Shown: in pieces, positions 18,725 to 39,312 of the stretch
Numbering within the stretch: position 1 is the first letter of the stretch
How the letters are laid out: each line of letters opens with the position of its first letter
NCBI RefSeq assembly: GCF_040783975.1
Contig: NZ_CP160631.1
Span: 2,790,001 to 2,854,000 of the forward strand
Direction: 5' to 3'
DNA length: 64,000 nt
Origin: Pantoea sp. Ep11b
GTDB taxonomy: Bacteria > Pseudomonadota > Gammaproteobacteria > Enterobacterales > Enterobacteriaceae
Notes under the pieces: model-generated
The model's database searches: none
The model's input: only the letters and a program-made list of their open reading frames with translations
What the model was told of the DNA's origin: nothing
Position numbers and translations under genes: made by a program

Positions 18725-18800
18725 TCCTCTGTAGTTCAGTCGGTAGAACGGCGGACTGTTAATCCGTATGTCACTGGTTCGAGTCCAGTCAGAGGAGCCA
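18725..18800 (+). tRNA. tRNA-Asn (anticodon GTT), copy 1
   Basis: This 76-nt gene folds as a standard cloverleaf: acceptor TCCTCTG / CAGAGGA with discriminator G and encoded CCA, anticodon loop CTGTTAA and T-loop GTTCGAG. It is identical to the copy at 39237-39312. tRNA-Asn genes near cbl-nac are known integration sites for islands in enterobacteria. Confidence 0.97.
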
Positions 18801-18842: not shown

Positions 18843-19032
18843 GCTTTTGCGCGTCCGGGGCTGACGGGATGCTGTCTGCGTGGCGATGCATCCTGCCCTG
18901 AATTTTGTCTGCGCCCTGAAGTCGTTAAATAATTTAAAAGGCGCCAACCAGGCCGGAGCCTGGCAACAATCTTCTTCATTCCTCTTTCGTTCTCTATTGA
19001 TCAGGTTTTTGTAAGCCCGTTAATGCAAAAGA

Positions 19033-20415
19033 TTATCGATGCAAACGCAGCATGCTTGCGACGGATGAAACTGCTGAAATCAGACAGGCCATGCCAAAAA
19101 CATAAATGGCGAATGATGCTTGTGCCCCTTCAGCCAGTCCGTTTGACAATGCTATAACCATTGCAACAAGGGCAGCACCGATTGATTGTCCAGCGGTTCT
19201 GGCTGTCGATAAAAGCCCTGACGCCGTAACGGTCCGGTCCTTCGCAACGTTTGAGAACATCTCCTTATTGTTGGGTGGCAGGAAGAGCCCATAACCAATT
19301 CCGCATACTGCGACACGCCAGACGATATTACCCATAGTTATAACCGCAGGTAACGTTGCCAGTAACCCCAAACCTGAGCTGAAAATGACTACGCCGATCG
19401 TCGAAATTTGCGTGGGATTTAACCTGTTCGATAGCCAGCCAGCAATGGGAGCACAGACTGCTACGGCGATCGGCCAGGGCGTGAAGATGAAAGCCGATTC
19501 GAGTACAGAGTAATGATAGGTATGCTGCAGAACAAAAGGCAGACCAACCAGCGCCATTCCCTGAGCAATAAACAATGAAAAGGATGAAAACACAGCAAAG
19601 GAGTAACGCTTTGAATGAAACACATCCAGCGGCAATAGGGGATGTTCTGAGCGCGTCTGCTGAACGATAAAAACAGCCATGAAAATACCTGAAGCAGCAC
19701 CGCACAGAATAAGTATGGAATGCTCCCAGCGTCCGATTTGATCGACAGCGATAACCAGAAGTCCCAGGGATACAGCTGACGTGACTGCGCCCCCCCAGTC
19801 AAAACCGCTTTCCCGCACATCATCTGTGCCAAGTGAAATCAGTGCGAGAACGGTAGCCAGAGCGCCCAATGGAATGTTGATATAAAACAACCAGGGCCAG
19901 TCAAGCCAGGAGATGATCAAACCACCCAGCGCAGGACCAATAGCTGTCCCCACGGCAAAAGCCAGTGCGTTAAGTCCCAGAATTGTGCCTAAGGTATTCG
20001 CGGGAAAAATAACCCGATACAGACCTAATCCTACGCTAATCATCACGGCATAACTCACCCCCTGAAGTATGCGCATAGCAACCAGCATGCCGAACGTTGA
20101 AGAGAGGCTGCAACCCAATGATGCCAGCGTAAAAAGCACCATTCCCAGCGTATAAAAGCGTCGTTCCCCTATCCGCGATCCCAGTGATGCGCAGATCAGC
20201 ATTGTCGCCGCGCTGGCCACCTGATAGCCGTTGGTTACCCAGATGACTGAGGCTGAATCGACATGCAAAGCCTCAGCAATTGATGGCAAGGAGATGTTAA
20301 CAATGGAACCGTCCAGCGCTGCCATGATAACGCCGATCAGAATGGCTGCGGCCGCCAGATAGCGCCTTGGTGTTTCAAACCCCTGTTCTAATGTATTACT
20401 GCTAACCAACGACAT
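19033..20415 (-). CDS. MFS exporter, DHA2 (14-helix) drug/metabolite type
   Basis: About 460 residues with the DHA2 signatures: ALDGSIVNISLPSIAEAL in helix 1 (near residue 35), RILQGVSYA, and motif C around GPALGGLIISWLDWPWLFYINIPLG. About 14 hydrophobic segments can be counted. I start it at 20415 (MSLVSSN) because the 19 residues in front are highly basic and overlap the upstream gene. It is the last gene of the minus-strand group PrpD paralogue, GAPDH-like, kinase, MFS. A DHA2 pump in last position suggests export of, or self-protection from, the product. Substrate unknown. Confidence 0.87.
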   Translation of the reverse strand: MSLVSSNTLEQGFETPRRYLAAAAILIGVIMAALDGSIVNISLPSIAEALHVDSASVIWVTNGYQVASAATMLICASLGSRIGERRFYTLGMVLFTLASLGCSLSSTFGMLVAMRILQGVSYAVMISVGLGLYRVIFPANTLGTILGLNALAFAVGTAIGPALGGLIISWLDWPWLFYINIPLGALATVLALISLGTDDVRESGFDWGGAVTSAVSLGLLVIAVDQIGRWEHSILILCGAASGIFMAVFIVQQTRSEHPLLPLDVFHSKRYSFAVFSSFSLFIAQGMALVGLPFVLQHTYHYSVLESAFIFTPWPIAVAVCAPIAGWLSNRLNPTQISTIGVVIFSSGLGLLATLPAVITMGNIVWRVAVCGIGYGLFLPPNNKEMFSNVAKDRTVTASGLLSTARTAGQSIGAALVAMVIALSNGLAEGAQASFAIYVFGMACLISAVSSVASMLRLHR

Positions 20416-20443
20416 ATCCCGGATATCCTTAATTAATTGGGGT

Positions 20444-21424
20444 TTACGCGCAGAGCGTGACCGTTTCTGCAACAGTACCTTCCAGATAAGCCAGTAGTCC
20501 CAGCATCAATACTTCTTCAGGACTGGCTACAACAGGCGAACGTGGCATATTCCAGGTCTGTTTACTGCCATTGATGCGTATGCTTCTCAGAAAACAGTAT
20601 GTAGTGAGCACGTAAAATCGGTTACGCATGCTCTCTCCCATCAGTGGCAACAGGCCTGAAATGCTGCCCAGCTCAGGTATTTCGCTAAGGATATTGGCGT
20701 AATCAGGTCTGGCCAGTACAAACATCAGCGCATCCGCCATTGGTACGACTTTAACGGCATCTTTTACCTCTGCCGCCAGCTCATGCCAGAAAGAAAAGGC
20801 AAATCGGGAGAAGCCAAAAAGAGGATCCAGGCCACGAACTGAAAAATCAGGATCGATAAAACGCGTTTCAGCACATTCTTCGTTATAAAGCACATTGCCA
20901 AAATGAAAATTGAAATGAGCTTTGTCCACCGCTCTGAACACTTCTGTCTGAGCCATTTTCAGAGCTTTTTCATAAACTTCTCGTGCGGTAGTGGTAAAAC
21001 CGGCGCCATTCAGAAGCACGGGTTTATCAAACAGTGCATGCGCGAAGCGTGTCCCTTCCCACTCCTCCCGCAATCTCTCGGCCATATCATTGACCATCAC
21101 CGACGAGGTTTCTGATTCCAGACCAATGGCCTCCTGTATTTTTTCCAGCGCATTTCTCACGATCATCCTGCGCCCTGCCAGTGATCGCTGCTCATCAAAA
21201 ACGATCCCTGATAACGGCAGGGAATTCATTTTTTCAAGAATGTAGAATTGCCGTCCCGCAGCCAGTCCGTCATGAAGTACGGGTACCATAAGTTGCGGAT
21301 AAATCGCGTGTAATACGCGAATCTGTTCGACTTCGGCTTTTATTTTTTCATTAAATTGCGCAGATCTTGCTGTCTTCACTACAAAACCTGAACTCAGAAA
21401 ATCAACGGTGTGGGAGCGGGTCAT
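20444..21424 (-). CDS. APH/choline kinase-like phosphotransferase
   Basis: 326 residues without full resemblance to a named enzyme. The C-terminal half shows the aminoglycoside phosphotransferase catalytic pattern. HFNFHFGNVLYN (near residue 168) corresponds to the HxDxHxxN loop with the usual first Asp replaced by Asn. RFIDPDF about 20 residues later corresponds to the metal-binding IDxD/DFG-like Asp. The N-terminal part (FVVKTARSAQFNEKIKAEVEQIRVL) looks like the nucleotide-binding lobe with Lys and Glu. Its ATG overlaps the stop of the GAPDH-like gene (ATGA), so the two are translationally coupled. It may phosphorylate the pathway intermediate. A HipA-type or inactive kinase is a possible alternative. 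Confidence 0.65.
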   Translation of the reverse strand: MTRSHTVDFLSSGFVVKTARSAQFNEKIKAEVEQIRVLHAIYPQLMVPVLHDGLAAGRQFYILEKMNSLPLSGIVFDEQRSLAGRRMIVRNALEKIQEAIGLESETSSVMVNDMAERLREEWEGTRFAHALFDKPVLLNGAGFTTTAREVYEKALKMAQTEVFRAVDKAHFNFHFGNVLYNEECAETRFIDPDFSVRGLDPLFGFSRFAFSFWHELAAEVKDAVKVVPMADALMFVLARPDYANILSEIPELGSISGLLPLMGESMRNRFYVLTTYCFLRSIRINGSKQTWNMPRSPVVASPEEVLMLGLLAYLEGTVAETVTLCA

Positions 21425-22563
21425 TTTTCAATCTCCTGGAAAGTGGCAACGGGCAGGCCGGACGCAATACTCCGTGCGACGGCACGGACCACTGCGCTAT
21501 AGCCAACGGTGTTATTAACAAATGACTGGATAATGATTTCACTCAGATTCTGGCTAGCCAGATGGGGGGGCCTGAGAATCAGCAGATGGTTCTGATCGCT
21601 CAGGACGGTTGAACAACGGCGTTCATAGGCATAGGCTCTGCTACCTAATGGCGAACGCGAAGCTTTCACCACATGAGGATGGGTACTGTTTACCCTCTCT
21701 ATTGCAGCCTCAATGAGACTACTGGTTAACGCGCCTGCATCTCTGACGATAAAGCGATTAATCTGATAACCGGGAGCATGTACAGGTGCGCGTAATGAAA
21801 CCGTATTTACCAGCGGTGCCCAGGGCATCACCTTATCCTGACTCATCGCGATTTGAGAAAAACTCGGGCGCAGATTGTCCCGGGCATCCTGCTGACGCCC
21901 TTCGAATGAGCGGGTGCCAAGCACGCCGTTTGGCGTATCCGGATGCACAATATCGGTTTCTACCGACAGAATATGCGAAGCATTACAGTTAAGGGTTCTG
22001 AGCGCCTCAATGAGCACACGCAGTGAGGCATGCATCCCGTTAGTCTGACAGGAACCCAGGCAATACATTCCCGAACGGACTACCTTACGGTCAATGGTGC
22101 CAATCTCGTCACGAGTCAAATCTTCCAGGCAGCCATAGATGCTCGGCAACGCATTGGCTTCAGCAACACCCAGCACGACATCAGCAATTTCCTGCATGTT
22201 GCGGGCAACAGGGCTTTCCTTATCCATGTCGAGCTTGCTTGTGGCAATAAAGCCAATATCAAAACGGCCTGCCTGCGGAGGAATGGTCTTCGCAAGATCA
22301 CCAAAATAAAAATTAACCTCGCGTTCCTGAATACGCAGTGTTTTATCATTGATAACAGTGAGGCTGGACTGGATGCCCGGAGATGCCATAGCAAGACGGG
22401 CCACTATGCCATCAATTGGGCGTAAATCCGGGTAATGTTTGTCCAGCGAGGGCGGGTTCGTCACCACAGTATCAATAATAAACCCATCGTTTTCTGGATC
22501 ATTCTGGATCAGAAGGTTCGCGCCAATTTCTGCTCCGCAGCCTGCCAGTATTGCTTTTTTCAT
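21421..22563 (-). CDS. Divergent GAPDH-like dehydrogenase
   Basis: 380 residues. I do not recognise a named family, but the layout follows glyceraldehyde-3-phosphate dehydrogenase. It has an N-terminal Rossmann start (AILAGCGAEIGANLL), the catalytic-type motif GSCQTNG near residue 172 (compare SCTTNC), and DARDNLRPSFS (compare the RRxRAAxxNIIP segment). It then has VSLRAPVHAPGYQINRFIV (compare ALRVPTPNVSVVDL) and a C-terminal NNTVGYSAVVRAV (compare DNExGYSxRVxD). The family reduces or forms acyl phosphates or thioesters through the Cys. The catalytic His position is not clear and may be replaced. GGAG ribosome site, 46 bp after the PrpD-like gene. Confidence 0.6.
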   Translation of the reverse strand: MKKAILAGCGAEIGANLLIQNDPENDGFIIDTVVTNPPSLDKHYPDLRPIDGIVARLAMASPGIQSSLTVINDKTLRIQEREVNFYFGDLAKTIPPQAGRFDIGFIATSKLDMDKESPVARNMQEIADVVLGVAEANALPSIYGCLEDLTRDEIGTIDRKVVRSGMYCLGSCQTNGMHASLRVLIEALRTLNCNASHILSVETDIVHPDTPNGVLGTRSFEGRQQDARDNLRPSFSQIAMSQDKVMPWAPLVNTVSLRAPVHAPGYQINRFIVRDAGALTSSLIEAAIERVNSTHPHVVKASRSPLGSRAYAYERRCSTVLSDQNHLLILRPPHLASQNLSEIIIQSFVNNTVGYSAVVRAVARSIASGLPVATFQEIEK

Positions 22564-22609
22564 CTTTTACTCCGAATGCGATAATTAATTGAAAGGTTTC
22601 AGGTGCGAA

Positions 22610-24037
22610 TTAGTTCCAGGAGAACAATTTCAAAAAATCGGTGACGGTCATGGCATCCAGCTTCGATTCAGATGTCAGTATCCCAGCCAGCACAGAAGAA
22701 CGATCACGTAATGGGCTACCTGAAAGATTCATATGAAATTTTGTCAGCAGTGCGTCGAAACACTCTTCACGCCGGCGAACATGACCCAGCGGATATTCGA
22801 TGGTTTCGGAGAACTCTTCATCTCTGCCGTAACATTTCAGGAAGAGAGAATTAGGAATGGCGCGCTTTTCAGGATCGTAATAGCTTTCAGTAAATGAGGG
22901 CCGTTCAACGCAGCTAATTTTCAAGCGCAAGGCTTCCAGGTCTGGATCAGAAGCAAGGGGATCATGGAAGTCATTAATCGTGAGGTTGCCAGTTTGCAGT
23001 CCTGCTGCAACCATGTATTGCAGGCAGTGATCGCGATCTGCAGAATTCTTCATCGGACCGGATTTATCAATAATCTGCATGGCCGGACGCGTTGTTTCCA
23101 CCCGTACATACTCAATGCTTTCAAGAGAGAAGCCCTCAGCAAGGATACGTGCGCGCAGGTTAATCGCCGCCTCTACTGCCGTCTGTGCATGGTATTCGGC
23201 AGGATTAGGCACTTTAAACAGGATATTTTTGATGACAAAATCCGATAAGCTACGCGACAGATTGAGAGGTTTACCCCTTAGCACCGCTTCGTCGAATCCC
23301 CAGCGACTGGCGGTTAGCGCAGTGGGATATCCCATTTCTCCCGTCTGAGCAAATAGCGCCAGCTGCAGACCCCGCGCCGTTGCATCCCCTGCCGCCCAAG
23401 ATTTACGCGTTCCCGCATTCGGTGCATGCCGGTATGTTCTCAACGCATGTCCATCAATGACAGCATTTGATAGCGCACTGAGTGCCTGATCTTTTGACAA
23501 GCCCATGAGCTGTGCTGAAGCAATAGCCGAAGCCATTTTTACCAGTACCACATGGTCGATACCCAGCGCATTGAAGCAGTTTGACAGACATAACACCCCA
23601 TGAACTTCGTAAGTACGAATCATAGTGTTCATGACTGTGGTCATCTGCATAGCCGGGTGCTGACCATCAGCGAGGCTGTACCAGGCGGCGGCGGTCAGAA
23701 TCGCCCCCAGATTGTCGGAAGGATGTCCCCACTCCTGGGCCAGCCAGGTATCGTTAAATTCCAGCCAGCGGATCATAGAACCGATATGAAAAGCAGCCTC
23801 GACAGGCCCCAGCTTCAACGCTGTCCCCGCAACTGGCACACCGTTATCGCTCTTGCTGAACTGAGATCCCTGCATCAGCTTCATACAGTCAGCATCCGTC
23901 GAGGCGGCAATTGCGCAACCTATCGAATCAAGCAGGCAATAGCGTGCCAAACGTAACGTCTCATCATCGAAGGATGTCTGCTCGTAAACATAATCAACCA
24001 GTTGTACCAATACCTTATCGTACGCGGCATCCGCCAT
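22610..24037 (-). CDS. PrpD paralogue (MmgE/PrpD family, 2-methylcitrate dehydratase-like)
   Basis: 475 residues, aligning along its whole length with E. coli PrpD by eye. Landmarks are FNDTWLAQEWGHPSDNLGAI (near residue 92), LRTYRHAPNAGTRKSWAAGDATARG (near 200), TGEMGYPTALTA, ADRDHCLQYMVA and a C-terminal PLGHVRRREE. PrpD dehydrates 2-methylcitrate. Related family members decarboxylate cis-aconitate or isomerise tricarboxylates. No prpB, prpC or prpR is nearby, so this copy is unlikely to serve propionate breakdown. It is the first gene of the four-gene minus-strand group, divergent from a LysR gene. Confidence 0.85.
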   Translation of the reverse strand: MADAAYDKVLVQLVDYVYEQTSFDDETLRLARYCLLDSIGCAIAASTDADCMKLMQGSQFSKSDNGVPVAGTALKLGPVEAAFHIGSMIRWLEFNDTWLAQEWGHPSDNLGAILTAAAWYSLADGQHPAMQMTTVMNTMIRTYEVHGVLCLSNCFNALGIDHVVLVKMASAIASAQLMGLSKDQALSALSNAVIDGHALRTYRHAPNAGTRKSWAAGDATARGLQLALFAQTGEMGYPTALTASRWGFDEAVLRGKPLNLSRSLSDFVIKNILFKVPNPAEYHAQTAVEAAINLRARILAEGFSLESIEYVRVETTRPAMQIIDKSGPMKNSADRDHCLQYMVAAGLQTGNLTINDFHDPLASDPDLEALRLKISCVERPSFTESYYDPEKRAIPNSLFLKCYGRDEEFSETIEYPLGHVRRREECFDALLTKFHMNLSGSPLRDRSSVLAGILTSESKLDAMTVTDFLKLFSWN

Positions 24038-24501
24038 GATTTACCCCATCATTGAATAAGAATTATCCATATACCGACAATAGTGACTCTATACATCAGA
24101 AAGTAATTTACGAAAACTGACAATCCATTGATTTATCTGCAAATAATCTATTTCGCTTATTAAAAGCGTAAATGCCGTGGTATTAAAAAACCAGCGAATA
24201 AAACCGTGGGGGCGCATCGAAAATATTGATGGCAGGTAAAGTCATAGTGGAATAAGGTTAATTTTTTAGCCTGTCACTGCCGATTAAATAGAAACCAGAA
24301 GAGCACAATATATCGCGTAATTTACATAACCAGAATTAATGCCTGCTAAATTGATTATTTAATCGTTGTCATCACGAATTTCTTTCCCGGATATCTGGCC
24401 ATTTCATGTCGGCCAGTATTGCAAAGTGAGTGACAAAATTGTTAATAAAGAATATAAATAATTTCTGTAATGATAGACCACTTTTACGCATGAGGTTTTA
24501 A
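24038..24501. other. Divergent promoter region between the PrpD-like and LysR genes
   Basis: 464 AT-rich bases without a credible gene. By position it should hold the promoters of both genes and LysR operators. I could not single out a convincing T-N11-A box or -10/-35 pair among many AT-rich candidates. Confidence 0.5.
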
Positions 24502-25389
24502 ATGAAGATAAGTGAGCTTCTTGCATTCGTGACAGTCGTGGAGACAGGGAACATAACCCAGGCAGCCGAACGTCTTAATCGTGTGCAATCGAGTATTTCT
24601 CACCGAATCAGAAGTCTGGAAGACAATCTTGATGTCACATTATTAGACCGAAAAGCCGATGGATGCTCACTTACATCACAGGGTCAGATACTTTATGACT
24701 ATGCGCGGAAAATATTAGATCTGGCGGATGATTGTAAAAACAACATTCATTGCTCAAAAAACAGGCAGATAAATATGCGTATCGGCATAATTGAGTGCCT
24801 GCCACCCTACATTGTCAGTGCATTGATTGACCTTGGCCATGACCTTGGCTGGAATATTGACATTACTGTCGGAAATACCATCAGTCTGCTAAATGCCTTT
24901 GACCATAAAGAGTTTGATGCCGTTATCATTGGCGCCGGATTTTCAAATGCACACCACACTGCTTCCACGTTGCTAACAAGCGAACTCGTTATTATTACTG
25001 AAAAAGATTATCCTGATATCAAAGACCTTTCAGGTCTGGATGGAGAAATTTTCTTACTAAGCAGTAAAAAATGCGCAACGACGACGCGAAATTATGATCT
25101 CCTGTTCAATGAGGCTCGGATTACTCCTAAACGCATGGTGGAATGCGGATCTTATCCGGTACTGTTCTCAAGCATCGCCGCAGGTAAGGGTATTTCAATG
25201 GTATTACGCTGTTCAATCAGCAACGAAATACAGAATAAAATTAAAATTCATGAGCTCAACGGGCAGTTTAGTGACTTCAAAATAGAGCTGGTTTATCGCA
25301 CAGATTCAATGCAGATTGAGGGGGCTAAATTCAAAGGGATTATGAATTCAGTGTTTCAGGATCCACGCCTGAATGCTTCCGGTTACTGA
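24502..25389 (+). CDS. LysR-family regulator of the PrpD-like cluster (putative)
   Basis: 295 residues. The N-terminal winged helix is typical (LLAFVTVVETGNITQAAERLNRVQSSISHRIRSLEDNL, residues 5-42). A type 2 periplasmic-binding-like effector domain follows, unusually rich in Ile, Asn and Asp. It is divergent from the PrpD-like gene, the classical arrangement for a LysR activator of its neighbour. The coding sequence is clearly AT-richer than the flanking core genes, which suggests transfer. Confidence 0.85.
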   Translation: MKISELLAFVTVVETGNITQAAERLNRVQSSISHRIRSLEDNLDVTLLDRKADGCSLTSQGQILYDYARKILDLADDCKNNIHCSKNRQINMRIGIIECLPPYIVSALIDLGHDLGWNIDITVGNTISLLNAFDHKEFDAVIIGAGFSNAHHTASTLLTSELVIITEKDYPDIKDLSGLDGEIFLLSSKKCATTTRNYDLLFNEARITPKRMVECGSYPVLFSSIAAGKGISMVLRCSISNEIQNKIKIHELNGQFSDFKIELVYRTDSMQIEGAKFKGIMNSVFQDPRLNASGY

Positions 25390-25537
25390 ATTTACTGCCT
25401 TCTTTCCTGTACTTCCCTGTCAAAATGAGTTAACAGAGAGCGGGAGAGCACACGTCCAGCGTTGCTCTCCCTCCTGACAGCCAGGTTTCAAATCTGCTAT
25501 GACTCCCGGCACAACAGGCTCAACTATCTAAGGCTAC

Positions 25538-26749
25538 TCATACGGTTTCTGGCAGAATGATTAACTTCTTCGTTTTACACTTCTCAAGAATCCACTTCAT
25601 GACTGGAACTTCAAAATATCTGTATAAAAATCCAGCGATCGATACGGAAAGAATCAATGCTACCGCGATAAGTGACACCCCCTGAAAAAGGTCAAACTTT
25701 TTGCCTGCCGTAAGGTTCAGAAAGTAGAAAAGCACCAGGAAATGAACCATGTAAAACGAATAGGAAATTTCCCCTAACCATACAGACAATTTTGAGTTCA
25801 ATAGTGTATTGCGGTTTTTAAGATCATCGCCTGCCATTGAAATGATAAGAATGCAAACTGGTATAATGAAAACCACACTCATGCTGAACTGATAAGGCAA
25901 AAACATAGATCCAATGTAAGTAATTAAAAGCAGAGTCATTGATGCTGTTTTCGGAAGGATCAATGCCCGGCCGTTGATCAGCAACCGGGCAGCAAACATC
26001 CCGGCAACAAATTCGAATATACGCGATGGTGGAAAAATATAGGATACCCAAAAGTGGCGTTGAGAAATGGGAAAAGCCCCCATTAAATGATTGGATTCAA
26101 CCCCATAATAGATACCTGTTTGTACCAGCAGGGAGGCTAAGGTAACAATAATTAATCCCTGGACATCAAATTTTTCAGGAATTGCTTTCATTACCCTGAA
26201 AAGAAATGGGAACGAAAGATAAAACATGGCTTCTATGCATAAAGACCAGCTCGGTCGGTTCCCTACAAAGAAGTAATGTACATCATCAATCCATGTGTTC
26301 AGTAAAAACAGATTCGAAAACCAGAGCTTATACTGATACAGACTCACCGCACCAAAGATAAATGCTATAATCAAGGTAAGGCAATGTGTAGGATAAATCT
26401 TTGCGAACCGCCGCAGATAAAAATCGCCAGCGGTATCGTCTTTTTTGGCTGACCAGACCATTATAAAACCGCTTAGAATAAAGAAATATGAAACCCCGAG
26501 CCACCCTGCTTTTCCTACAATCACAGTGAATCCATGTTGAATAGTGGGATCTGAAAAGGGCGCAAGATCACTCGGCAGGGATGAATGAAATAAGAAAACC
26601 AACAATGCAGCCCAGAAGCGGCTGCCGGTAAGTGATGAAAGCCTTGGTAACCTTGCTGAGCTTTCTTTGAGCATTGCGCATTCTCCTGATAACTTTCCTT
26701 TCTCAGGATTAATATAAGTAATGGCTTCTTTGTTTATTTCAGCGTTCAT
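25538..26749 (-). CDS. Membrane acyltransferase, OafA/YrhL family (acyltransferase 3)
   Basis: About 403 residues with around ten membrane segments. The family pattern is clear: LTGSRFWAALLVFLFHSS (catalytic His in the first helix region, compare RAxAxxxVxxxH), then FFILSGFIMVWS and FYLRRFAKIYPTHCLTLI. These enzymes O-acylate surface polysaccharides or secreted small molecules from the cytoplasmic side. I start at 26749, which has GGGAAGA in front. An upstream in-frame ATG lacks a ribosome site. It is AT-rich and convergent with the LysR gene. It is separated by 174 bp from the MBL-fold gene, so it may or may not share a transcript. Confidence 0.85.
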   Translation of the reverse strand: MNAEINKEAITYINPEKGKLSGECAMLKESSARLPRLSSLTGSRFWAALLVFLFHSSLPSDLAPFSDPTIQHGFTVIVGKAGWLGVSYFFILSGFIMVWSAKKDDTAGDFYLRRFAKIYPTHCLTLIIAFIFGAVSLYQYKLWFSNLFLLNTWIDDVHYFFVGNRPSWSLCIEAMFYLSFPFLFRVMKAIPEKFDVQGLIIVTLASLLVQTGIYYGVESNHLMGAFPISQRHFWVSYIFPPSRIFEFVAGMFAARLLINGRALILPKTASMTLLLITYIGSMFLPYQFSMSVVFIIPVCILIISMAGDDLKNRNTLLNSKLSVWLGEISYSFYMVHFLVLFYFLNLTAGKKFDLFQGVSLIAVALILSVSIAGFLYRYFEVPVMKWILEKCKTKKLIILPETV

Positions 26750-26923
26750 AGATTCTTCCCAGGGGATAAAAGATACCGGTCGTTTTGTCAGATGGCAGAG
26801 TGACAATGTTTAAGAACTCCGGGCAACGTATAATGATAAAGCGCGGCCGAAAGCCCGCAATTTATCATCACGCTGCCCTGCAAAAATCAGTGCTTAGTGA
26901 AAAAAATAATACGACGTCTGAAT

Positions 26924-27760
26924 CTACTCTTTATGCACAATATGGTATCCCGACGCTTGTTTTTCGATATAACCAAAAGCCTGTTCGCCGAAATGCATTC
27001 CCCCAACCAAAACCTTATCAGAACTCACTGCCTCAAGCATTCGTATACGTACCTCAGCCGCCCTATGTGGATCATAGTCAAACGCTATCGCCACCTCTGG
27101 CCTGCTCAGTTGAATATGCGGGAAATGGACAATATCGCCCCAGATCAACAGACTGTTATGTTCGCCTTCAATCTGATAGCCTGTATGCCCCGGGGTATGG
27201 CCTTTTAAAGGAATGGCAAAAATACCAGGAAACACCTCGCCACTTTCGATTAAACGAATTTTTTTCTGATACTTTTTGAATATACTTCGTGCTAAAAGGA
27301 AATTTCCTTTTATGCGATCGCTGACCGCTGCGAAATTTTCATCACTTTCAATATAATTGTACTCATCCCGGCTGATTATTAATTCCGCCCGATTAAACAG
27401 GGCTTCATCTTCACCATTTAACAGTCCGCCGATATGGTCAGGGTGCGCATGCGTCAGAAGAACTGCATCAATATCTTCGGGCTGTATATTTAACCTGGCA
27501 AGATTAGCTACCAATCTCCCGCCCCAGCCTTTTACGCCACCCGCACCACTATCGATAAGAATATTTTTTTCTTTGCGACGCACCAAAAATGTATTGATGT
27601 GAACCGCATTCGGCTCGCTGATGTCAGCATCACGCTGGATTTTTTCACACTCTTTTTCATCAACCTTTAAGAGCATGTTGAAACCGACTTCCAGATATCC
27701 ATCGCTCAGTGCTATCACCTCTGTATTGCCAAGATCTCTCACAGGAAAACCGGCGTTCAT
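26924..27760 (-). CDS. MBL-fold metallo-hydrolase
   Basis: A protein of about 278 residues with the metallo-beta-lactamase fold metal ligands: THAHPDHIGG near residue 100 (HxHxDH), GHTPGHT near 192 (third His) and WGDIVH near 210 (bridging Asp). The ILIDSGAG strand precedes them. This subgroup contains lactonases and other hydrolases of small esters. The ATG at 27760 (MNAGFPV) is preceded by GGAG, and earlier in-frame starts would overlap the upstream gene. It is 10 bp after the tautomerase-like gene, so probably co-transcribed. Confidence 0.83.
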   Translation of the reverse strand: MNAGFPVRDLGNTEVIALSDGYLEVGFNMLLKVDEKECEKIQRDADISEPNAVHINTFLVRRKEKNILIDSGAGGVKGWGGRLVANLARLNIQPEDIDAVLLTHAHPDHIGGLLNGEDEALFNRAELIISRDEYNYIESDENFAAVSDRIKGNFLLARSIFKKYQKKIRLIESGEVFPGIFAIPLKGHTPGHTGYQIEGEHNSLLIWGDIVHFPHIQLSRPEVAIAFDYDPHRAAEVRIRMLEAVSSDKVLVGGMHFGEQAFGYIEKQASGYHIVHKE

Positions 27761-27770
27761 AAATTGCTCC

Positions 27771-28097
27771 TTAGTTCTTTCCATAAATATTACTCGCGTC
27801 AAAAGAAAAACAGCGAATTCGTGCTGAAACCCCTGTCATTTCCTTGATTAGCACATCAACCTGATGCATGAACTCCTCCATCAACTCTGTCGTTCTGAAC
27901 ACCTCCTGCCTCAGTCTGGCTTCGAAATAAATGGGCGTGCCAAAGCCTATCCTTGCGGTGAGATAGCTGATATGAATATTATCCTGTTTAGCGTTAAGTA
28001 TCTTTTGTGCAAGACCGGCCAGAATCGTTGAGAATTTTTCACAGGATTCACAATCCAACCGATAATTTTCTGAGGTATATAGCGTAATACTGGGCAC
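27771..28097 (-). CDS. Tautomerase/CHMI-like small protein
   Basis: 108 residues starting at a GTG and beginning M-P-S-I-T-L-Y, so Pro would be the free N-terminus after Met removal, the catalytic residue of the tautomerase superfamily. Length and the segment ISYLTARIGFGTPIYFEARLRQEVF resemble 5-carboxymethyl-2-hydroxymuconate isomerase (compare IGAGRSLESRQQAGEML). Such enzymes move double bonds in keto/enol acids. It lies between a cyclophilin gene (24 bp) and the MBL-fold gene (10 bp). The assignment rests on the N-terminal Pro, size and a short similarity. Confidence 0.6.
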   Translation of the reverse strand: MPSITLYTSENYRLDCESCEKFSTILAGLAQKILNAKQDNIHISYLTARIGFGTPIYFEARLRQEVFRTTELMEEFMHQVDVLIKEMTGVSARIRCFSFDASNIYGKN

Positions 28098-28121
28098 CCT
28101 GAAATCTCTCTTCTCGTAACT

Positions 28122-28703
28122 TTAACTTTCTGAAACTCGCCAGACCGATCTGGCTGACGCTAGCCGTAACCGTTTTATCGTTTCCGGGTTTAATACCTTT
28201 CCCGTCTCATGCGTTCCGCCTTGCAACTGGTCTATCAGATCCATTCCCGCTGTGACTTTGCCAAAAACTGTATAGTTCTGATCTAAATATCTGGCTCTGT
28301 TCGTGGTGATAAAAAACTGGTGGGTCGCACTGTGTGGATGGCGTGATCTGGCCATACCGACCGTACCGCGTTCAAACGGCAGCGTGCTGAACTCAGCAGC
28401 GAGTGGGGGTAGCTGTCGCGGATCAATTCGCGACATATTCCCTGGATCACCTGTCTGGGCCATAAAGTCCTTTATGACTCTCGCAAACGGCATGCCATCG
28501 TAAAATCTGGCCTGTGCCAATGCCTTGATACGTCTGACATGGCCCGGTGCCCGATCTGAAAATAATCGGATGCTGACTATTCCGCTCCCGAGTTCCATTT
28601 CAAGGAGATCGCTCTCCTGTGTGGCTGTCTGAGACAGGGCCGGAAGCATCATGGCTCCTGCGCACAGGCCCAGCCCCCCGCCAATAAACGTTCGACGATT
28701 CAT
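28122..28703 (-). CDS. Tat-exported cyclophilin-type peptidyl-prolyl isomerase
   Basis: 193 residues. It has a twin-arginine leader (MNRRTFIGGGLGLCAGAMM, cleavage around residue 27), then a small bacterial cyclophilin domain: GSGIVSIRLFSDRAPGHV, FYDGMPFARVIKDFMAQTGDP, GTVGMARSRHPHSATHQFFI and YTVFGKVTAGMDLIDQLQGG. The active-site Arg (FARVIKDFMAQ) and QFFI are present. Cyclophilins catalyse proline isomerisation and usually cross by Sec when periplasmic (PpiA), so Tat export is unusual. The tight linkage to hydrolase and tautomerase genes hints at a specialised role. Confidence 0.85.
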   Translation of the reverse strand: MNRRTFIGGGLGLCAGAMMLPALSQTATQESDLLEMELGSGIVSIRLFSDRAPGHVRRIKALAQARFYDGMPFARVIKDFMAQTGDPGNMSRIDPRQLPPLAAEFSTLPFERGTVGMARSRHPHSATHQFFITTNRARYLDQNYTVFGKVTAGMDLIDQLQGGTHETGKVLNPETIKRLRLASARSVWRVSES

Positions 28704-28803
28704 CTGTTTTTCCTGATTCTGAACCTGACCTCATAGCCCGTCATGCCCGATGCATGAATTCACTCTTGCCTCTTCTCCGCAAGTTATGTGACTGCTTATC
28801 GGT

Positions 28804-29586
28804 TTACTGTTTTTTATCCATTTCTATAAAAGAGATAATCTCATTGGTCAGCGCGTCAGGCTGTTCGAAATTGGGTAAATGCGCCGCCCCCTCAAGCGTA
28901 TGCAATTGTGCATTTCTTTTTCTGGCAAGCCGTTCTGCATAATCCGGTGGCGTAAGCTGATCCTCGCTTCCCCTGACGACAACCGCTCTTACACCCGGAA
29001 TGTTCATATCGGTTAAATCCGTATTCGCAATGGCATAAGAGCACCCCGCGAAAGCCTCAACTGTTGTTCGCCGTAGCATCTGCTTCATCCCGTCAGCATA
29101 CGGCGAATCCAGAAACATCGGTGTCACCCACTTACTTAAAATGCCCATTTCAAGGTGCTCAATACCGTGCTGGAATACATCTTCTGCACGGGCACGCCAG
29201 AGTGCTGGCGGCGCAGCATTGACCAATGCGGTATCCACAATAATCATTCCCAGAACCCTTTTTGGGATTCTGAAGCCAATCCATTGCGCTATTGTTCCTC
29301 CGATTGAAACACCGGCAACATAGAATGTATTAATGTGAAGGTAGTCCAGCGCAGCTATGACATCGTCGGCCAAATCTGACATTGAAAACTCAATCGCGTC
29401 GACAGCACTTAATCCGTGACCACGTATATCCAGGCGAATAACCCGATAGCGTTCAATCAGACGCGGCATTTGTAAATCCCAGAGATGCAAATCTGTTCCC
29501 AGCGAGTGAAGAAGGACCAGCACTGGCGAATTTTCTTTTCCCTGCACATCAACATGCTGGGTTAACTTAAGCGGTCGTATAAACAT
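28804..29586 (-). CDS. Alpha/beta hydrolase (3-oxoadipate enol-lactonase-like)
   Basis: 260 residues with the alpha/beta hydrolase core. It has LLHSLGTDLHLWD (oxyanion region), DIRGHGLS, the nucleophile elbow GVSIGG (Ser near residue 96), the acid in RGSEDQLTPP (near 207) and the base in GAAHLPNFEQP (near 234). The general look is PcaD-like, but no other pca gene is near. It may be the first gene of a row with the cyclophilin, tautomerase and MBL genes. The ribosome site is weak. Confidence 0.83.
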   Translation of the reverse strand: MFIRPLKLTQHVDVQGKENSPVLVLLHSLGTDLHLWDLQMPRLIERYRVIRLDIRGHGLSAVDAIEFSMSDLADDVIAALDYLHINTFYVAGVSIGGTIAQWIGFRIPKRVLGMIIVDTALVNAAPPALWRARAEDVFQHGIEHLEMGILSKWVTPMFLDSPYADGMKQMLRRTTVEAFAGCSYAIANTDLTDMNIPGVRAVVVRGSEDQLTPPDYAERLARKRNAQLHTLEGAAHLPNFEQPDALTNEIISFIEMDKKQ

Positions 29587-30367
29587 CTGATTAATGCGCC
29601 CTTATTTTTTAATTATGCTGCAGTGAAAATCCGGCAGGCAGAAAATGAAATGAATGTTCATTTTTCAATGAAAGACTATCAAGGCAATTTCAGTAGATGT
29701 GCTTATTTAAAAGTTATCCTGCTCCGTGAAATAACTTTCCAGCTCTTTCCAAATCACGCCAGCTGTCGCTATCATTAATAAAACACTTAACGCGCTGCCT
29801 CCAGTGAATAATTTCGATGCAGCTATCGATTTTATCAATCTGACTTTTATTGCGTAACGATCCCAGGAGCATGTAAGTAGTTAATGCTGTGAATTTCATC
29901 TCAGTACGTGACTATTTTTTAATGAAACTATGCGAAGGTGGATCAGTCGGCGTATGCAAAAAATATCGCCCGATATGCAGCAAATCGTAGTGATTTATTT
30001 TGCCGGAAGATCATCCAGCCAATTAAGGAGCACTGATAACAGAAAATTTTCACACTATAAGAATAACGGACATGAAAATTTAATTTTAGTTTTAACCACA
30101 CCGATTAAGAACGGTTTCACCTGTTAAAGGGACCTTACCAGACTTTCTTTGACATGTCAGGGTAGCGAACGCACCCCGATTCTTTATTTATAAATTTAAT
30201 GCATTGCCGCAGATCAATAATTAATCACTTAAAAGACAAGCGCATTATAAAAAATTTAAATAGATTAAAATCAACACATTACATCATACCAGCCCTTCAA
30301 AACAGAACAGCAACCCTTTGAAATTCTATAAAAAATCAATCACTCCCTGATGTATGATAAATGGAAT
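29587..30367. other. AT-rich intergenic region
   Basis: This 780-bp stretch is strongly AT-rich and has no convincing gene. A 61-codon frame at 29714-29899 (minus) has no good ribosome site, and I do not count it as a gene. The right end holds the sigma-28 promoter of the chemoreceptor. Confidence 0.5.
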
Positions 30368-30394
30368 TAAAGTTTAACCCGTTTTTGACGATAA
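30368..30394 (+). promoter_or_regulatory. Sigma-28 (FliA) promoter of the chemoreceptor gene
   Basis: TAAAGTTT, an 11-bp spacer and GACGATAA match the FliA consensus TAAAGTTT-N11-GCCGATAA with a single mismatch. Transcription would start near 30400, which excludes the ATG at 30399 as translation start and favours 30456. Confidence 0.85.
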
Positions 30395-30455
30395 GAAAAT
30401 GAGCCTTAAATTTAAACATTTTTCAGTTATCTGCTCCTCACTAAGGGTTAAACCT

Positions 30456-39236: not shown

Positions 39237-39312
39237 TCCTCTGTAGTTCAGTCGGTAGAACGGCGGACTGTTAATCCGTATGTCACTGGTTCGAGTCCAG
39301 TCAGAGGAGCCA
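39237..39312 (+). tRNA. tRNA-Asn (anticodon GTT), copy 2
   Basis: 76 nt, identical in every position to the copy at 18725-18800, with encoded CCA. The flanks (GTTCAA-CGAT before, hairpin after) are also shared. Confidence 0.97.

Follow-up and report, generated by a model that had tools for sequence, protein, structure and literature searches.

In the aspartokinase/Asd, ProB/ProA and ArgB/ArgC pairs, an acyl phosphate is made with ATP and is then reduced with NAD(P)H by a partner enzyme. A PrpD-type dehydratase is part of the methylcitrate operon prpBCDE (Escherichia coli, locus L067), and in fungi, according to published titles and abstract openings, a 2-methylcitrate dehydratase has been recruited to secondary metabolism in maleidride and alkylcitrate clusters, while itaconate clusters combine aconitate chemistry with export. 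Here we describe a ten-gene unit at positions 19033–29586 of a 64,000-nucleotide stretch (the window) of the genome of Pantoea sp. Ep11b (4.03 Mb, two contigs), in which a PrpD gene stands with genes for a GAPDH-like protein, a kinase-like protein of the APH fold and a DHA2-type exporter. The unit resembles prpBCDE in its PrpD, which is 47% identical to the E. coli enzyme, and differs in that prpB, prpC, prpE and PrpR are absent from beside prpD, exporter, kinase and GAPDH-like genes stand there instead, and the PrpD belongs to a clade of its own. It resembles the aspartokinase/Asd-type pairs in gene adjacency and in the logic that we propose; in contrast to them, its activating enzyme would have the APH fold with an HxN loop and its reductase would lie nearer to GAPDH, both families being unnamed in Pfam and NCBIfam. 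The alkylcitrates of fungal clusters are made with a citrate-synthase homologue, whereas none is found among the ten genes of the cassette. Fungal itaconate clusters differ in the decarboxylation that takes place there, as far as those titles and abstract openings go.

Among Pantoea systems, a survey of 12 antibiotic clusters, PNP-1 to PNP-5 included, describes them as small, mostly of low GC and patchily distributed (PMC11350110). The passages of that survey at hand mention no PrpD, dehydratase, kinase, lactonase or glyceraldehyde, and a known Pantoea antibiotic cluster was set aside as far as these passages go. They give P. agglomerans and P. vagans as carriers of PNP-3; neither species is named among the 120 GAPDH-like matches listed (most of them nameless), and identity of the cassette with PNP-3, judged by species spread and not by gene list, is unlikely. 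The pantaphos hvr cluster of P. ananatis is likewise a Pantoea small-molecule cluster with a citrate-like dehydration; unlike the cassette it follows a phosphonate route, and the dehydration is ascribed to HvrDE, of isopropylmalate-dehydratase type, not to a PrpD (passages of PMC7858074). The first-pass annotation, made from the sequence alone, knew of no described cluster with this make-up, and the literature searched (titles, abstract openings, and passages of PMC11350110, of PMC7744662 on PNP-4, and of PMC7858074) likewise holds no description of the cassette. Within that literature, what is new is the enzyme pair, HxN kinase-like and GAPDH-like, at the heart of a small metabolite cassette; PrpD in secondary metabolism is already known from fungi. 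Pfam and NCBIfam detect no polyketide synthase, nonribosomal peptide synthetase, terpene-synthase or phosphonate-mutase family among the ten genes, so that cluster miners based on such classes may miss it.

Gene order, co-inheritance and promoter elements

The unit consists of two operons and a divergent LysR gene, and as a unit it is well supported (Table 1). The core operon encodes PrpD, the GAPDH-like protein, the APH-like kinase and the DHA2 exporter; the second encodes a PcaD-like hydrolase, a cyclophilin, a 108-amino-acid protein, an AidB-like lactonase and an acyltransferase. The first-pass annotation had listed five open reading frames (ORFs), those for the exporter, kinase, GAPDH-like protein and PrpD on the minus strand and for LysR on the plus strand; all are present and open on those strands, and the stop codon of the GAPDH-like gene and the start of the kinase gene do overlap in ATGA. 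The further overlap that it saw between exporter and kinase genes was an artefact of a TTG start: nine of ten exporter homologues are 456–461 amino acids long and one was called at 472, which moves the Met start of the window's exporter to about 20415, so that 28 bp separate it from the kinase gene. Its five genes do form one unit, as it had proposed, and that unit extends over five more genes, to 29586, and two operons.

A pattern-limited scan of 84,980 species genomes with the GAPDH-like profile returned 20 loci, 11 of them close and intact (L003–L013), eight distant (L014–L021) and one a remnant (L022). In all 11 close loci (L012 having its GAPDH-like gene located by tblastn) the GAPDH-like gene has the PrpD gene as its upstream neighbour and the kinase gene as its downstream neighbour, indicating that the co-occurrence expected by the first-pass annotation, in the same order, extends beyond this strain. 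The exporter gene is next in 10 of the 11 (absent from L013), a LysR orthologue is present in seven (L003, L004, L006–L010), and the five-gene set of the second operon, corresponding to 25538–29586 of the window, also in seven (L003, L004, L006–L009, L011). L005 is cut by a contig end and L013 is a short contig without the second set. The second operon is inverted in L006 and rearranged in L011, with the five genes still together in both. The divergences between pairs of loci run closely parallel for PrpD, the GAPDH-like protein, the kinase and the exporter (r 0.96–0.99, 55–66 pairs), a correlation that partly reflects species divergence. PrpD of Telmatospirillum (Alphaproteobacteria; L011, a metagenome bin whose host assignment is less certain) is 66% identical to that of the window and PrpD of Pseudomonas 55%, which suggests block transfer. 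In Pantoea sp. Eser, a stinkbug symbiont (L022/L002/L140), the whole cassette is present as a decaying remnant: disruption or truncation has reached nine genes out of ten, while the 108-amino-acid ORF and both promoter elements remain.

The same element, TTCGAT-N7-TCGA-N3-TATYC, lies upstream of both operons in a promoter alignment of eight loci for the PrpD operon and seven for the PcaD-side operon, the window being in both. With a weight matrix that left out the locus under test, as well as the window, the two operon sites ranked first and second (scores 43.4–50.1) in each of the six loci where both operons and the regulator are present, the next-ranked match in five of the six being the reverse reading of the near-palindrome; the matrix also found both sites in the remnant (49.4 and 45.0). 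In Marinomonas (L010; LysR and PrpD operon only) the PrpD-promoter site came top at 25.2, and no element was found in L011–L013, which are without a LysR orthologue, nor in L005, where the contig begins 148 bp upstream. Exact matches to the consensus, which was drawn from the six both-operon loci with absence elsewhere not built in, occur in 7 of 140 loci: two in each of the six and one in the remnant. In the window the PcaD-side site scores 38.2 and the next unrelated place 4.0. A consensus search allowing three mismatches gave 4 matches in the window against 1.99 expected and was too loose to use genome-wide (280 places against 67 for a reversed control), and among the matches listed at least two unrelated places in the genome equal the PcaD-side site at one mismatch. 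We therefore base the operator claim on the held-out matrix and the exact matches in relatives, not on the genome-wide search. A single regulon over both operons is well supported in the relatives, and the LysR protein would presumably bind the operator-like element.

The kinase-like protein, its GAPDH-like partner and PrpD

Models of Pfam and NCBIfam identify the exporter, PrpD and LysR. The labels APH-like and GAPDH-like of the first-pass annotation stand for two proteins that reach no threshold of either collection; as fold families, both labels are borne out by profile–profile comparison. The kinase-like protein matched the APH fold at 88% over 190 columns (the single sequence misses the Pfam APH cut-off, E = 0.026). 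The GAPDH-like protein matched 19 GAPDHs, those of 25 control loci that passed a length and motif filter, at 87% (E 4e-6, 323 columns; negative control 0.1%), while a plain PDB sequence search reached GAPDH at E 0.025 only. In that alignment its SCQTNG motif falls on the GAPDH SCTTN, the His of HPDT on the GAPDH His and R258 on an Arg; the Cys, His and Arg are residues with known roles in GAPDH. There are 158 homologues, 120 of them listed; 62 stand at about 47% identity or more and the rest at 39% or less, save for P0079, a short record with matches to part of the GAPDH-like protein and part of the kinase. The nearest named one among the matches listed is from Pantoea sp. C2G6 (94%). By pattern, GSCQ is present in 119 of the 120 homologues listed, D-x-x-HPDT in 114 and the Leu-Arg of R258 in all 120, and the GSCQ and HPDT motifs are invariant in 76 aligned rows. 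Judged by these alignments, the protein belongs to the GAPDH superfamily, with homology along its length.

At the position of the HGD loop of APH enzymes, the kinase-like protein has HxN, with Asn in 43 of 43 homologues, compared with Asp in 27, Glu in one and a misalignment in one of 29 aligned sequences from 30 APH control loci (a looser pattern applied before alignment found HxD in 24 of the 30). The loop Asn, H170, N177 and an IDPD motif are invariant in 16 sequences down to 16–20% identity. In APH enzymes the catalytic Asp is held to be the base for the hydroxyl. A carboxylate is itself nucleophilic and can do without such a base, which makes a carboxylate kinase a natural reading of HxN. 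If this is true, there is a clear chemical reason why a kinase family always has Asn for the catalytic Asp, and a function that simple assays can probe is provided for two protein families as yet unnamed.

The pair also occurs away from PrpD-type cassettes. Six of the eight distant loci (L015, L016, L018–L021) have an HxN kinase gene next to the GAPDH-like gene. An SDR gene adjoins the pair in every one of these six, on the upstream side in L015 and on the downstream side in the other five, as would suit a reductive route. Several of the pairs sit with surface-glycan-type genes (NeuB, ATP-grasp, cytidylyltransferase, nucleotide-sugar dehydratase and formyltransferase families). The loci in which the SDR gene comes next after GAPDH-like and HxN kinase genes (L016, L018–L021) are metagenome-assembled genomes of Acidobacteria, Alphaproteobacteria, Uhrbacteria and Omnitrophota. 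In L014 a gene for an NrfD-type protein lies beside the GAPDH-like gene, and in L017 (7007–14041) the GAPDH-like gene lies between a Succ_CoA_lig-type gene and a phosphoenolpyruvate (PEP) carboxylase gene, without an HxN kinase. On Pantoea alhagi plasmid pPALTYR11Z (L026, 11204–14337), YrdC-like, distant GAPDH-like and PEP-synthase-like genes stand in a row, flanked by IS3 transposase and integrase genes; the YrdC-like and PEP-synthase-like proteins both fall below their model cut-offs. GAPDH-like proteins are thus recurrent, not universal, partners of ATP-using and possibly carboxyl-activating enzymes.

The PrpD of the window passes both curated PrpD models, one narrowly (578 against 575 bits) and the other at 512.2 against 458. 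It is the sole TIGR02330 match in the genome and so not the paralogue that the first-pass annotation took it for. For methylisocitrate lyase, the two matches of the genome to the prpB model lie far below the cut-off (74 bits against 354.4); with no PrpB over the cut-off, a methylcitrate cycle in the host is unlikely (no search was made for prpC). In a tree, 12 cluster PrpDs separate from 22 others with support of 100/97. The latter were E. coli PrpD and 21 of 28 model matches (seven below the cut-off left out, the window's own excluded), classed by model cut-off, with operon context known for E. coli only. Twelve positions are at least 90% conserved within each group and differ between the groups, and the cluster PrpDs keep the WGHPSDN, GxDH, RKSWAAGDA and E[YF]H segments.

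Proposed chemistry and its alternatives

We tentatively favour, at a likelihood a little short of even, a LysR-controlled small-metabolite cassette in which a citrate-type acid would pass through PrpD, kinase and GAPDH-like enzyme to an exported product. The specialised PrpD would dehydrate a citrate-type tricarboxylate, with citrate to aconitate the likeliest use because the genome shows no methylcitrate cycle. The APH-fold protein with HxN would then phosphorylate a carboxylate of the product, a reaction that proceeds without a catalytic base, and its GAPDH-fold partner would reduce the acyl phosphate, by way of a Cys thioester, to the aldehyde. Lying next to a cis carboxylate, this aldehyde could close to a hydroxybutenolide, and the DHA2 pump would export the product or a derivative. 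The second operon, with its two lactonase-like hydrolases, 108-amino-acid protein, acyltransferase and cyclophilin, might mature, decorate or detoxify it. Activation by the kinase followed by the GAPDH-like step had been suggested by the first-pass annotation, and we adopt it for the HxN loop and the conserved Cys and His. We infer substrate, direction, product and activity alike; the product is probably a small, exported, citrate-derived molecule. Held a shade more tentatively is a wider proposal, that the HxN and GAPDH-fold proteins form an unrecognised and widespread module for activation and reduction of free carboxylates, in which the aspartokinase/semialdehyde-dehydrogenase logic would have been invented a second time, independently, and whose kinase may have discarded its base since a carboxylate needs none. 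The module would serve surface-glycan loci of several phyla and, with a specialised PrpD, a mobile ten-gene cassette that makes from citrate a reactive aldehyde or butenolide for export.

Several observations weigh against these proposals. The second gene set is absent from the 10 kb on either side of the core in L010 and L012 and is therefore not essential to the core, and divergences of LysR and of the second operon correlate more weakly (r 0.60–0.87). The PrpD-side element of the window is one base longer and degenerate: it was missed by the consensus search with three mismatches, and its matrix score of 2.8 lies below the values of up to 11.7 reached by mono-nucleotide shuffles (n = 20), so that it is identified by position and alignment. 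The window's own PrpD promoter may thus be weakened and its regulation partly lost. The HxN kinase is not beside the GAPDH-like gene in two of the eight distant loci or in the plasmid locus, and the Asn loop would also fit a pseudokinase, the main alternative for this protein. The LysR regulator, the lactonase-like and PcaD-like hydrolases and PrpD also have a catabolic look.

This last point leads to the main rival, a catabolic or detoxifying cassette, which we consider unlikely if far from negligible. A lactone or tricarboxylate would be opened and degraded, the GAPDH-like enzyme would oxidise an aldehyde with phosphate to the acyl phosphate, the kinase-like protein would pass the phosphate to ADP, and the pump would remove toxic intermediates; GAPDH chemistry is reversible. 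The exporter in the core of 10 of the 11 close loci and an acyltransferase better suited to biosynthesis argue against this account, as do the SDR genes that adjoin the distant pairs, several of them among surface-glycan genes.

Somewhat less probable again is that the HxN protein is no kinase, being instead a pseudokinase partner or an enzyme that transfers another part of ATP (e.g., AMP), with the GAPDH-like protein acting on another activated acid. Replacement of the catalytic Asp in every one of the 43 homologues would agree with this, as would the GAPDH-like genes that lie beside other ATP-using enzymes (L017, L026); invariance of H170, N177 and IDPD down to the lowest identities suggests, on the contrary, a working nucleotide site. 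We think it improbable that the cassette is an itaconate-type producer, in which PrpD would be a cis-aconitate decarboxylase and the pump would export itaconate or its lactone. PrpD and the decarboxylases share a fold, and fungal itaconate clusters have an MFS gene and lactone products, as far as published titles and abstract openings go. Against structures, however, the window PrpD matches PrpD at E 8e-141 and cis-aconitate decarboxylases at 9e-16, both PrpD models are passed, and the kinase/GAPDH pair, which is not known from fungal itaconate clusters, is left unexplained. A chance gathering of transferred genes on a tRNA-side island, as low GC, the tRNA-Asn edge and the insertion relative to one congener might suggest, is exceedingly improbable, being contradicted by the 11-of-11 linkage with its order kept across families and classes, the correlated divergences and the common promoter element.

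Insertion site, rarity and second-operon proteins

Between 18 and 31 kb of the window the GC content is 39–53%, compared with 53–65% in the flanks. In a congener (G015), the tRNA-Asn side (91% identical) and a chemoreceptor gene (77%) are separated by 1.46 kb, compared with the 11.6 kb between them in the window; of three congener flanks compared (L136–L138), G015 alone has both flanks close, the other two having no match on the tRNA side within the stretch compared and so being uninformative. Three loci have a tRNA gene no more than about 0.5 kb from the exporter end of the cassette: tRNA-Asn in Kosakonia (L007) and in the remnant L022, and tRNA-Phe in Erwinia sp. 198 (L006). In Serratia (L003) a tRNA-Asn gene lies 5 kb off that end; seven other close loci have no tRNA gene near it. 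Neither a direct repeat of the tRNA end nor, among the ORFs listed, an integrase was found at the insertion. A horizontally moving insertion beside tRNA-Asn is the best explanation of these data.

Among 61 species of the genus the kinase gene turned up in two, as the copy of the window and as a broken one, and the GAPDH-like gene in the same two among 99 relatives. Samples of 394 species of the order and, searched by profile, 398 species of the phylum each yielded a single GAPDH-like gene, that of the window. Named hosts of homologues include Pantoea, Erwinia, Rahnella, Serratia, Kosakonia, Cedecea, Xenorhabdus and Burkholderia, which are plant-, insect- and soil-linked genera. A set of 72,556 plasmid records held one distant GAPDH-like gene and no kinase, and the 19 stretches of viral contigs that fit the pattern included no relative. 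A defence system was rejected with PADLOC, which gave only five cross-hits to metallo-beta-lactamase domains and one weak match of the kinase protein (E 0.012).

Table 1. Features of the cassette and its surroundings, in window coordinates.
Feature	Position	Strand	Evidence
tRNA-Asn(gtt), chromosomal edge of the insertion	18725–18800	+	ARAGORN
11.6-kb stretch with the cassette, in place of 1.46 kb of G015	18849–30435		Congener comparison; GC
DHA2/EmrB-type MFS exporter	19033–20415	-	TIGR00711, 244.8 bits (cut-off 230.2); start inferred from homologues
APH-fold protein, HxN for catalytic HxD	20444–21424	-	Profile comparison and alignments
GAPDH-like protein, SCQTNG and HPDT motifs	21421–22563	-	Profile comparison and motifs
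PrpD-family dehydratase, separate clade	22610–24037	-	578 bits (cut-off 575); tree
PrpD-side operator-like element, degenerate	24188–24226	-	Promoter alignment; matrix score 2.8
LysR-type regulator, divergent from prpD	24502–25389	+	PF00126 and PF03466
Acyl_transf_3 membrane acyltransferase, start perhaps 26749	25538–26806	-	PF01757; kept in 7 of 11 close loci
AidB-lactonase-like hydrolase of the metallo-beta-lactamase fold, start uncertain	26924–27802	-	PF00753; AidB model, 211.9 bits (cut-off 360); HxHPDH in 8 of 8
108-amino-acid protein, invariant Met-Pro start, no family	27771–28097	-	Alignment; profile searches
Cyclophilin, twin-arginine N-terminus	28122–28703	-	PF00160, 126.7 bits; RRxF in 8 of 8
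PcaD-like alpha/beta hydrolase	28804–29586	-	TIGR02427, 209.8 bits (cut-off 255.85); GVSIGG in 8 of 8
Operator-like element of the PcaD-side operon, near-palindromic	29798–29836	-	Top matrix match of the window, 38.2; one mismatch to consensus on either strand

In the second operon, the HxHPDH, GVSIGG and acyltransferase patterns are each present in eight of eight sequences. The AidB and PcaD models both miss their cut-offs (Table 1), which makes lactonase-like the limit of the claim for these hydrolases. The 108-amino-acid protein has no Pfam match down to E 10, and its Met-Pro start, invariant in 18 of 18 sequences, recalls tautomerases; assignment to a tautomerase (CHMI) gained no support, the profile comparison giving 1.5% (six sequences from 12 loci) and the best MIF chains E 0.62 and 0.72. 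The cyclophilin with its twin-arginine N-terminus (RRxF) is a constant member of the set, and its active-site pattern is present in six of eight sequences (not in L007 and L011). Next to a katG-like gene, 20 kb away from the tRNA-Asn(gtt) gene at the insertion edge, there is a second one at 39237–39312.

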